Below, one piece after another: positions 4,998 through 42,205 of a stretch of 51,331 nucleotides of DNA (the stretch's first letter is position 1; the number at the start of each line of letters is the position of its first letter). Position numbers and translations under genes: made by a program. Source of the stretch: Aquificaceae bacterium (lineage in GTDB: Bacteria; Aquificota; Aquificia; Aquificales; Aquificaceae); NCBI GenBank assembly GCA_025057455.1, contig JANWWY010000008.1, forward strand, positions 1-51,331. The letters run 5' to 3'. The notes below the pieces were generated by a model. The model worked only from the letters and a program-made list of their open reading frames with translations. It did no database searches and was not told the DNA's origin.

Positions 4998-5033
4998 GAG
5001 TTTTAATTTTATGCCAGTTTACAATAGATGTTT
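4998..5033. promoter_or_regulatory. Divergent promoter region between the SoxH-like gene and fmt
   Basis: Both genes have a TANNNT box close to the start codon. On the minus strand TAAAAT is at 5006-5011, 8 nt before the ATG of the hydrolase. On the plus strand TACAAT is at 5020-5025, 8 nt before the fmt ATG at 5034. The -35 boxes are weak. Neither gene has a Shine-Dalgarno sequence. Confidence 0.5.
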
Positions 5034-8536: not shown

Positions 8537-10120
8537 CTAAATTATACCCTCTTCCTCATCCTTGTGAAGTTTGTATATTAGACTATCCGTCAGGGCTATC
8601 CACGAGGCTTCTATGATGTTTTCAGAAACGCCTACCGTACCCCACTTTTTGTTTCCATCAGTTGACTCTATCAACACCCTTACTTTTGCTTTTGTACCTT
8701 CTGACTCGTTTACTATTCTCACCTTATAGTCAATGAGCTGAACTTCCTTAAGGTTTGGATAAAACTCCTCCAGAGCTTTTCTCAACGCTCTATCTAAGGC
8801 GCTTACTGGTCCGTTCCCAAGGGCAGCGGTATGCTGTTTTACATCCTCCACAAAGAGCCTTACCGTTGCCTCAGAAACAGGAAGGTCATCAGTGCTCCGC
8901 TTTGCTATAAGCACCCTGTAGGCATCAAGGTTAAAGTAATCCCTCACAAGCCCAAAGTGCCTTTTACACAATAGCTCAAAGGAGGCTTCCGCAGCTTCAA
9001 AGTGATAACCCTCCTTTTCCAGCTCCTTTATTTTCTCGACGAGCTTGAGAACCTCTGGAGACTTTTCCTCCGCTTGAATACCCATTTCCCTTAATTTATA
9101 AAGGATGTTACTTCTTCCAGATAGGTCTGAAACGGTTACCTTCCTCCTGTTTCCTACCAGGGCTGGATCAATGTGTTCGTAGGTGCTTGCATGTTTCATT
9201 ACTGCGGAGGCGTGCACTCCAGCCTTGTGAGCAAAAGCACTCTCACCCACATAGGGCATGTTCTTGGGCAGTGGCATGTTGGAGATTTCAGAGATAAAGT
9301 GGCTCAGTTCTGTAAGTCTTCTTAAACTGCTCTCTTGCACAACCTTGTAGCCCATTTTTAGCTGAAGGTTTGGTATGATGGAGCAGAGGTTTGCGTTGCC
9401 GGTCCTTTCACCTATACCGTTTATGGTGCCGTGAACCTGTCTTACTCCTGCAAGCACCGCCATAAGGGAGTTGGCAACTGCGGTCTCCGAGTCGTTATGG
9501 GCATGTATGCCTATGTTTGCATCTGGGAAGACCTCCCTTACCCTTTTGGTTATTTCGTATACCTCGTGGGGCAGACATCCGCCGTTGGTATCGCATAACA
9601 CCAGCCAGTCCGCACCACCCTGATGTGCAGCCTTTAAAACCTCAAGGGCATACTCTGGGTTATTTTTGTATCCGTCAAAAAAGTGTTCCGCATCAAAGAT
9701 TACCTCTTCTGCGTGCATTTTCAGATAGTTTACAGACTCATAAACCATAGAGAGGTTTTCTTCTAAGCTGGTCTTTAAAGCCTCCTTAACATGAAAGTCC
9801 CAGCTTTTACCAAAAATGGTTATAACTCTTGCATTGGACCTTAGGAGGTTTTCCAGCTGAGGGTCTTCCTTTGCACTTTTGCCAGGTCTTCTGGTGGAGC
9901 CAAAGGCAACTATCTTTGCATGCAATGGCTTGTACCTTTTAAGCCTTTCAAAAAGCACAGTGTCCTTCGGGTTTGCACCTGGCCAACCGCACTCTATGTA
10001 GTCTATACCAAACTCATCCAACTTTTGAATGATGCGTAGTTTATCTTCCAGGGAAAAGTTCACACCCTCTGCCTGGGAGCCATCTCTTAGTGTGGTGTCA
10101 TAAATGAAAACTTTTTCCAT
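8537..10120 (-). CDS. cimA: (R)-citramalate synthase
   Basis: The enzyme condenses pyruvate with acetyl-CoA to citramalate, the first step of a threonine-independent isoleucine pathway. The 527-residue protein begins with the DRE-TIM motif [17 protein letters not shown] and has GWPGANPKD and [13 protein letters not shown] (metal-binding HxH). A C-terminal regulatory LeuA dimer domain runs from about residue 400 to the end. [10 protein letters not shown] and the overall length point to the CimA subgroup rather than LeuA (2-isopropylmalate synthase). No Shine-Dalgarno is visible, and TATATT lies 7 nt before the ATG. The gene is 16 bp downstream of dnaG. Confidence 0.9.
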
Positions 10121-10136
10121 AATATAAAATATATCA

Positions 10137-11678
10137 CTAATGTTTGCTCCTCAGCTTTCTAGGCTGAGCCTTACTTTTTTGACGAAGCTGTTCAAAGCCT
10201 TCGAGCTCCTCTACGCTGGGCATCTTTAATGCCTTTAGACTATCTTGAAATACCCTCTGCAGGTTATTGACTTTGATGTTCTTCACTCTGTCAGGAATAA
10301 GATGGTGCTCTCCATTTTTAATAGCTTCTACAATTTCAAGGGCGTTAGGTGAAAGCCGTAGCTCTTCTAAATTTACACCTTCAAAACCAAACCTGTATAA
10401 ACCTGCCAAGAAAACAAGTTCGTGATAGCCAAGATTAAATTCCTCCTTTTTGGGTTTCTTTTCTATCCCTTTGACCCTGTCTTGAAGGTTTGTTATGGGC
10501 AGGCCAGTTATCTGGGAGATGCTCCTTAGGAGTTCATACCTTTTTAGACTGTCGGGGATAAAACCGCAAAAGTAAAGAAGGTCTTCAAAGGCTTCTTTGT
10601 CTCCTTCTCTTATCCTTTCTAAAAGGTATACTTCTACCTCTCTTGCGGATTGTAAAAGCTCCCTCAGAACTCTTGGCTCCTTTCTTACCAATGAGTCTGG
10701 GTCTTCACCTTCTGGTAGATAAACAACCCTTACAGTAAGCCCATGCATCAAAAGGTTGGGCACCGAGGACCTTACTGCCCTACGACCTGCCTTGTCTCCA
10801 TCGTAAAGAAGCAAAACCCTCTTGATTAACTTTGAGAGCATTCCCGCATGTTCCTCTGTAAGAGCGGTGCCAAGGGGTGCAACGCAGTTTTTTATGCCCT
10901 CTTGCCAAAGGCTTATAAGGTCAAAATAACCTTCAACTACGATAGCTTCCCCTTCTTCTTTTATATATTCCTTTGACTCATAGAGTCCAAATAGGGTAAT
11001 TCTCTTCTTGAAAACCTCCGATTCTGGTGAGTTTATGTACTTAGGTTGTGAGCCATCTAAGCTCCTTCCACCAAAGGCTATAACATTTCCGTCCATATCC
11101 CTTACGGGTATAATTAGCCTATTTCTAAAAAGGTCCCTGTAAGTGTTCTCGTCTACTTTTACGAGATTACCACTTTTTTCGTAAAGCTCAAGAAGACCCT
11201 CTTCCCTTAAAAGCCTTGTTAGTCTTTCCGTGCTACCACCGAAGCCTATGGTAAACTTGTTTATGGTTTTGGAGTTTACGCCTCTTGCCTTTAGGTATTC
11301 AAGGGCTTGGCTGTTTTCTCTCAGCTCCTGATGGTAAAACTCCGCAACCATCTCCAGAGCACGCAGAAGCTGGTGGTTTTTTTCTTTTTTTCTCGCCTTT
11401 GTAGGTATTGCCAAGTTGTATTTTTTGGCGAGCCTTTCAAGGGCTTCCCAGTAGTCTATGTTTTCATAAAGGGACACAAACTTGACCGCATCACCACCCA
11501 CACCACAACCAAAGCATTTAAAAATACCCTTGGAAGGTGAAACAAAAAAGGACGGCGTGTCATCAGGATGGAAGGGACATCTTGCTACATAGTTGTTTCC
11601 TACTCTCTTTAGCTCTATGTAGGAAGATATAACATCTACTATATCAATCTTAGTGATGGGGTCTCTAAAGGAGGGCAT
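10137..11678 (-). CDS. dnaG: DNA primase
   Basis: DnaG makes RNA primers at the replication fork. The N-terminal zinc-binding domain is complete: C34 and H37 (ARCPFHPDD), C55 and C58 ([10 protein letters not shown]). The Toprim catalytic residues appear in [14 protein letters not shown] and [12 protein letters not shown]. The C-terminal helicase-interacting part (from about residue 400) is short, so the protein has 513 residues against about 580 in E. coli. It heads a minus-strand unit with cimA. TATAAT lies 8 nt before the ATG with no Shine-Dalgarno, so translation is probably leaderless. Confidence 0.95.
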
Positions 11679-11696
11679 AGTGATAAATTATAGGTC
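11679..11696. promoter_or_regulatory. Bidirectional promoter with overlapping -10 boxes, dnaG/hemD
   Basis: The whole gap between the divergent start codons is 18 bp. The dnaG -10 is TATAAT on the minus strand (11687-11692), 8 nt before its ATG, with GTGTCA 17 bp further upstream. The hemD -10 is TAAATT on the plus strand (11684-11689), 7 nt before its ATG. The two boxes share three base pairs. Either transcript would begin within 0-2 nt of the start codon. Confidence 0.55.
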
Positions 11697-12401
11697 ATGA
11701 GGGTAGCCCTGACACGAACGCAGGAGGATATAGATAGAGATAAACACCTTTTTGAGAGGGAGGGATTTGAAGTGGTTCCATTGCCACTCATAGAAGAGGT
11801 AGCTTTGGAGTTTAAATTGCCGGAGGAATCCTTTGACTTTGTTATATTTCAAAGTCCGAGGGCTGTAAGGTTTTTCCTGTCAAGATACAAGTTAAAAGGT
11901 GAAAAGGTAGTCGTCGTCGGGGAGAAAACAAAAGAAGAGGTAGAAAAGTGGGGATACTCTGTTTGGGCTATGCCTGAAAACTACTACGGTAGAGAGCTTT
12001 TAGAGCTGTTCAAAGGGCTATCGGGAAGAGTGCTCATTCCAAAGTCTGCGGTGGGAAGGGATGAGGTTATAGAGGGTCTAAAAAATATGGGTTTTTCAGT
12101 TTATCCATTGAGTGTTTACACGGTAAAGGAGGTCCTGTACAAAAGGAAAGAACTCCTTAAAAAACTCCATGAATCCCATGTGGTTGTCTTTGCCAGCCCC
12201 TCTGCGGTAAAGGCTCTTATTGCAAACTTGCAAAAGGAGGATGCAAGAGCCATACTAAAGGAAAAGAAACTAATATGCATTGGCAAAACTACGAAAGAAT
12301 TTCTAAGGGAGGAGCTGTCTTTAGATTGTCTAATACCTGAAAAACCTACGATGGAAAGCGTAGTAAACTTACTAAAGAGTAGGCATGAAATTTGCATATA
12401 A
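11697..12401 (+). CDS. hemD: Uroporphyrinogen-III synthase (HemD-like)
   Basis: HemD closes and inverts the last ring of hydroxymethylbilane on the way to haem, sirohaem and cobalamin. The 234-residue protein has the family's two-lobe layout and weakly conserved signatures: VALTRTQEDIDRDKHLFEREG at the start, VIFQSPRAVRFFL, YGRELLELF, and VVFASPSAVKALI followed by CIGKTTKEFL. The family is divergent in sequence, so this rests on the pattern of these short blocks. Haem is needed for the soxAX cytochromes in this window. The gene overlaps the lpxC frame at its end and starts an 18-bp divergent promoter shared with dnaG. Confidence 0.8.
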   Translation: MRVALTRTQEDIDRDKHLFEREGFEVVPLPLIEEVALEFKLPEESFDFVIFQSPRAVRFFLSRYKLKGEKVVVVGEKTKEEVEKWGYSVWAMPENYYGRELLELFKGLSGRVLIPKSAVGRDEVIEGLKNMGFSVYPLSVYTVKEVLYKRKELLKKLHESHVVVFASPSAVKALIANLQKEDARAILKEKKLICIGKTTKEFLREELSLDCLIPEKPTMESVVNLLKSRHEICI

Positions 12402-12411
12402 AAAGAGCGGA

Positions 12412-14209
<1,798 letters not shown>

Positions 14210-17352: not shown

Positions 17353-17372
17353 GGATTAATATTTTAAAAGTT
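17353..17372. promoter_or_regulatory. Bidirectional promoter with overlapping -10 boxes, lipoate ligase / MoxR-like gene
   Basis: The gap between divergent start codons is 20 bp. On the plus strand TATTTT (17360-17365) ends 7 nt before the ATG at 17373. On the minus strand TAAAAT (17361-17366) ends 8 nt before the GTG at 17352. The boxes overlap by five base pairs on opposite strands, so one AT-rich element could open for both directions. The -35 boxes are weak. Confidence 0.5.

Positions 17373-39315: not shown

Positions 39316-42205
<2,890 letters not shown>

Follow-up and report, generated by a model that had tools for sequence, protein, structure and literature searches.

The 18-bp gap between the divergent genes dnaG and hemD is probably a two-way promoter of the sigma-A type, in which overlapping -10 boxes would direct leaderless or near-leaderless mRNAs both ways, and which would belong to a class of such elements that recurs within the genus. 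The gap lies in a stretch of 51,331 nucleotides from an Aquificaceae bacterium, referred to here as the window. A preliminary description of this DNA had presented it as a single case; it is a member of a genome-wide class that was overlooked there.

DnaG was identified by its Zn_ribbon_DnaG, DNAG_N, and Toprim domains (Pfam), and an in-frame TAA 9 nt upstream of its ATG rules out an earlier start. HemD was identified by a HEM4 match (Pfam, E=1.7e-44), its N terminus is kept among relatives, and it is followed by LpxC (Pfam). The gap length of 18 bp, the overlapping TATAAT (minus strand) and TAAATT (plus strand), which share 3 bp, and the distances of 8 and 7 nt to the start codons had all been described previously and agreed with the sequence. 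Counted from the first T of TAnnnT, the distance to the ATG is 14 nt for dnaG and 13 nt for hemD. No Shine-Dalgarno (SD) sequence was found in the gap in either direction.

Table 1. Features of the dnaG/hemD element and of two further short divergent gaps (window positions)
Feature	Position	Strand	Remarks
dnaG (DNA primase)	10137..11678	-	ATG at 11678; ORF; predicted leaderless or near-leaderless
hemD (uroporphyrinogen-III synthase)	11697..12401	+	ATG at 11697; ORF; predicted leaderless or near-leaderless
Proposed two-way promoter: divergent gap, 18 bp, AGTGATAAATTATAGGTC	11679..11696	.	Sequence
dnaG -10 box TATAAT, 6/6	11692..11687	-	8 nt before ATG; spacing kept across family
hemD -10 box TAAATT, 4/6	11684..11689	+	7 nt before ATG
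Alternative reciprocal -10 AATTAT, 4/6	11686..11691	+	Supplied by any TAnnnT; would give canonical 18-bp spacing
Weak -35-like GTGTCA	11710..11715	-	17 bp from TATAAT, within hemD coding sequence; not above chance alone
Short divergent gap, 20 bp, GGATTAATATTTTAAAAGTT	17353..17372	.	Left start GTG, less certain
Short divergent gap, 15 bp, GTATAAAATGTTAAT	39316..39330	.	Between lipA-like (-) and tgt-like (+), named by eye

The predicted geometry differs from the canonical 18-bp reciprocal spacing that had been proposed for this site. The hexamers are offset by 3 bp here, which predicts transcription starts 16 bp apart if a step of 7 bp from the -10 box to the start is applied, or 19 bp apart if both lie at the A of the ATG. 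If both starts lie at the A of the ATG, no T is seen at -18 in the 18-bp gap, but in the four relatives whose gap is 17 bp the geometry would put one there; both statements depend on the true starts. A -35/-10 scan around the gap yielded no excess, with 3 promoter-like sites against 3.2 in shuffles. Because the scan matches the shuffles, the site is weak evidence when taken alone, and what gives it significance is the class found across the genome, together with conservation.

Conservation was evaluated among related genomes, and dnaG was found in 58 of 61. In 11 of the genus members checked, this genome counted, hemD is divergent from dnaG, and the gaps measure 17 bp (four genomes), 18 bp, 21 bp (four genomes), 13 bp, and 25 bp. 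A 9-bp core, TATAATTTA, is present in 9 of these 11 gaps, the DnaG proteins being 61 to 73% identical, and the trailing TTA that completes the plus-strand box is likewise kept in 9 of 11. The two relatives with 13- and 25-bp gaps have deviating cores. In a genus member in which hemD is not located beside dnaG (L002), TATAAT still lies 8 nt before the ATG and the trailing TTA is lost. Most dnaG genes of the family, also where hemD is missing, have a -10-like box 7 to 10 nt ahead of the ATG, in other genera often with TTGACA another 16 to 17 bp upstream. This persistence of the -10 spacing across the family suggests that dnaG may already have been leaderless or nearly so in the ancestor of Aquificaceae, and that the two-way form would be a feature of the genus. 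Many dnaG genes outside the genus (L020, L022-L029) are preceded by a near-perfect TTGACA-N16/17-TAAATT, with the -10 approximately 7 to 10 nt before the ATG.

The lengths of divergent gaps were determined in 1.15 Mb of sequence, 347 kb from this genome and 800 kb from three other genus members. Genes were called with a simple purpose-written script, strongly overlapping genes were dropped, and the genomes, mostly MAGs, were sampled in part. Among 142 divergent pairs in these four genomes, 36 gaps were 14 to 23 bp long, compared with 1 at 0 to 13 bp and 7 at 24 to 33 bp. None of the 157 convergent pairs in the same samples had a gap of 14 to 23 bp. Gaps of this length also accounted for 9 of 41 in G014, which represents a sister genus, and for 2 of 8 in G034; samples of seven other family genomes contained none (0/61). 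In a 50-kb stretch of Escherichia coli, the smallest gap among 6 divergent pairs was 118 bp. The window holds an additional divergent gap of 30 bp (4998-5027, GAGTTTTAATTTTATGCCAGTTTACAATAG), upstream of a gene named fmt-like by eye, in which the A/T core is nearer to one side and which is possibly a longer variant. Of the 157 convergent pairs sampled from the genus (window, L031-L070, L094-L113), 98 overlap; for example, lpxC (12385..13251) and a kdsB-like ORF (13176..13895) are convergent with an overlap of 76 nt.

The class was also recovered by a pattern search that uses no gene calls. In 14 genus genomes, the offset-4 pattern CATN{2,5}TAWWATWWTAN{2,5}ATG gave 121 matches against 1 for the reversed-pattern control, and the offset-3 pattern CATN{3,6}TAWAWTWTAN{3,6}ATG gave 130 against 2, a total of 251 CAT-core-ATG matches against 3 for the controls. 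The dnaG/hemD gap fits the offset-3 pattern (G000:C65:11676-11699). Other Aquificaceae genera had fewer matches, mostly 0 to 8 per genome and mostly above their own controls. Matches were near the controls in other Aquificota families and at background in 100 genomes of the phylum to which a Clostridia MAG belongs; Deinococcus and Thermus plasmids, which are small, high in G+C, and little informative, gave none.

In this genome, 24 distinct sites were inspected, and at 19 of them both ATGs open diverging ORFs of at least 60 amino acids, a count that includes two window sites judged by eye and leaves out the C64 match. The partner genes include glmS-like/trmFO-like, kdsA-like (DAHP-synthetase-family)/AA_kinase (proB-like), and gatB/rdgB pairs, as well as surE, pdxJ, ksgA-like, purE, asd, and rpiB. 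Since the GIDA/TrmFO, AA_kinase, PdxJ, GatB, Ham1, RpiB, Asd, PurE, and SurE domains (Pfam) begin within the first few residues, the start codons of these partners are fixed. The same layout was found at the kdsA-like/proB-like pair and at surE, named by Pfam, in a second genus member (G136). Class sites are located at 61673-61698, 82912-82934, and 844781-844805 in G016, the third preceding a lysS-like gene. In the window, TATATTTTATATT stands directly before the ATG of the minus-strand gene at 8537..10120, downstream of dnaG, and overlaps the end of dnaG (10118-10142). It fits the class pattern but has no divergent gene beside it, and so resembles a near-leaderless promoter that acts on one side only, within the operon.

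A TAnnnT -10 (at least 4/6) with a spacer of 5 to 9 nt precedes 89% of class starts, compared with 14% in equal windows elsewhere, and the spacer peaks at 5 to 8 nt from the ATG. SD-like words occur at 8% of class starts, compared with 58% of operon-internal starts and 50 to 58% of other starts. A C or a T immediately precedes the ATG at 84% of class starts, the usual start-site preference being a pyrimidine at -1 and an A at +1. The class shows a weak -35 signal, so its promoters look -10-driven.

With both boxes at 5/6 or better, hexamer offsets of 3 and 4 were seen 8 and 14 times, respectively, against 0.3 and 0.4 in shuffles, dnaG/hemD being an offset-3 case. The canonical 18-bp reciprocal form (offset 1), considered as the main geometry, was only weakly enriched (4 versus 1.4 in shuffles at 5/6 or better) and was rejected. 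Offsets of 3 and 4 combined with spacers of 6 to 8 nt on each side predict gaps of 14 to 19 bp, in keeping with the abrupt lower limit at 14 bp. The TA that completes the opposite -10 is present at 65 of 80 two-sided starts (81%) compared with 47 of 136 one-sided leaderless-type starts (35%; P = 1.6e-11, a value that counts both sides of each pair separately although these are not independent, so that the true P is larger). A control TA one step nearer was equally frequent in the two groups (14/80, 17.5%, and 23/136, 17%).

The earlier proposal that a single short element unites promoter overlap with leaderless starts is partly supported. Its main idea is well backed at the sequence level by the conserved -10, the core, the recurrence, and the lack of an SD, whereas its single symmetric -10 gives way to what are mostly two distinct hexamers overlapping by 2 to 3 bp. 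In the mechanism that we propose, RNA polymerase would bind the gap in one orientation or its opposite, never in both at once, and the -35 contacts of each complex would fall within the first codons of the opposite gene. The polymerase would open the A/T core and begin RNA synthesis on the A of each start codon or 1 to 3 nt ahead of it, with predicted starts at approximately 11678-11681 (minus strand) and 11695-11697 (plus strand). The dnaG and hemD mRNAs would then be leaderless or nearly so and be translated without SD pairing. A length of 14 to 23 bp would remain between the start codons when a pair of overlapping -10 boxes, each with its own start-site spacer, is packed back to back. Since two polymerases cannot share one core, the two genes should compete, as follows from work on E. 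coli bidirectional promoters (PMC12825309). Given the unequal boxes (6/6 versus 4/6) and the weak -35 match, hemD expression from this gap could be low.

Other explanations of the same sequence were weighed against this two-way promoter. The perfect minus-strand box next to a plus-strand box of 4/6, the persistence of the dnaG -10 where hemD is missing, and the divergent transcription expected to some extent from any TAnnnT would all suit a gap in which TATAAT serves a leaderless dnaG alone, hemD is started inside dnaG, and TAAATT is a by-product of A/T-richness. We consider this unlikely, because the TTA that completes the plus-strand box is kept in most of the dnaG/hemD gaps (9/11), the second box is much more frequent in the class than in shuffles or at one-sided promoters, and hemD has neither an SD nor the room for one before its ATG. 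Ordinary leaders would be expected if both promoters were located inside the neighboring genes, the A/T-rich gap acting as a standby or unstructured ribosome-binding region. Promoters within coding sequence are common in compact genomes, but the rarity of SD words in the class compared with other starts (8% versus 50 to 58%) and an A/T signal whose sharp TAnnnT register 5 to 8 nt from the ATG goes beyond A/T-richness make this reading very improbable, and it does not explain why gap lengths break off sharply below 14 bp.

The cluster of gaps at 14 to 23 bp might also be spurious, a product of how start codons were chosen or of compaction across the genome, given a very compact genome in which convergent genes often overlap and a simple gene caller. 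This explanation is largely refuted, and we assign it hardly any probability: convergent gaps show no peak at 14 to 23 bp (0/157), the matches obtained without gene calls fall on divergent genes with Pfam-anchored N termini, the reversed-pattern controls are close to zero, and the other Aquificota families and the 100 genomes of the Clostridia MAG's phylum are at background.

Beyond the dnaG/hemD gap, the balance of the sequence evidence tips slightly toward a broader reading of the two-way promoter. Approximately one-quarter of divergent pairs in the genus, mostly of unrelated housekeeping genes, may be run by distinct two-way promoters that are the 14 to 23 bp between the start codons, each joining overlapping -10s and two leaderless mRNAs in one indivisible element whose genes compete for polymerase orientation. 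If true, each genome would hold dozens of gene pairs at which a two-way promoter and leaderless mRNAs are combined in one compact element, and there would be an explanation for the favored spacing of divergent genes. Polymerase competition at two-way promoters would become testable on natural housekeeping pairs, in which changes to the gap or core would alter promoter, start site, and translation start together. In Aquificaceae genomes, which give SD-based callers no signal to use, the CAT-core-ATG rule could also fix start codons.

Both leaderless genes and bidirectional promoters have been described before, as separate phenomena. In the work of Warman, Grainger, Wade, and colleagues (PMC12825309, PMC10268837), bidirectional promoters have overlapping -10s on opposite strands that are used in one polymerase orientation at a time, and their starts are expected 7 to 25 bp apart, most often 18 but also 10 and 23. 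TA-led leaderless genes have a TAnnnT whose first T is approximately 12 bp before the start codon and no SD, and were predicted to make up 20.7 to 32.4% of genes in two Aquificae genomes, with Aquifex aeolicus as an example (Zheng et al. 2011, PMC3160421). The start-motif passages of a dRNA-seq study of A. aeolicus (PMC4227106) make no mention of leaderless genes. Among open-licence titles and abstracts, none was found that joins leaderless genes with divergent or bidirectional promoters in bacteria, and no report was found in the open-licence literature of their fusion into a recurrent compact class.

Overlapping -10 elements on the two strands are common to the dnaG/hemD gap and to the bidirectional promoters described in that work (PMC12825309, PMC10268837). 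There, the starts are most often 18 bp apart around a single symmetric -10, whereas the favored form in the Aquificaceae class has two boxes overlapping by 2 to 3 bp and, by the 7-bp rule, a predicted spacing of 15 to 16 bp. Both start codons of the class lie at the predicted starts, without leaders, while no mention of leaderless genes was seen in the passages on bidirectional promoters. The TA-led genes (PMC3160421) share with dnaG and hemD a TAnnnT near the start codon and the lack of an SD. That survey proceeded gene by gene, and the words "divergent" and "bidirectional" are absent from it; here, two predicted leaderless signals share bases and would thereby fix the length of the intergenic gap.
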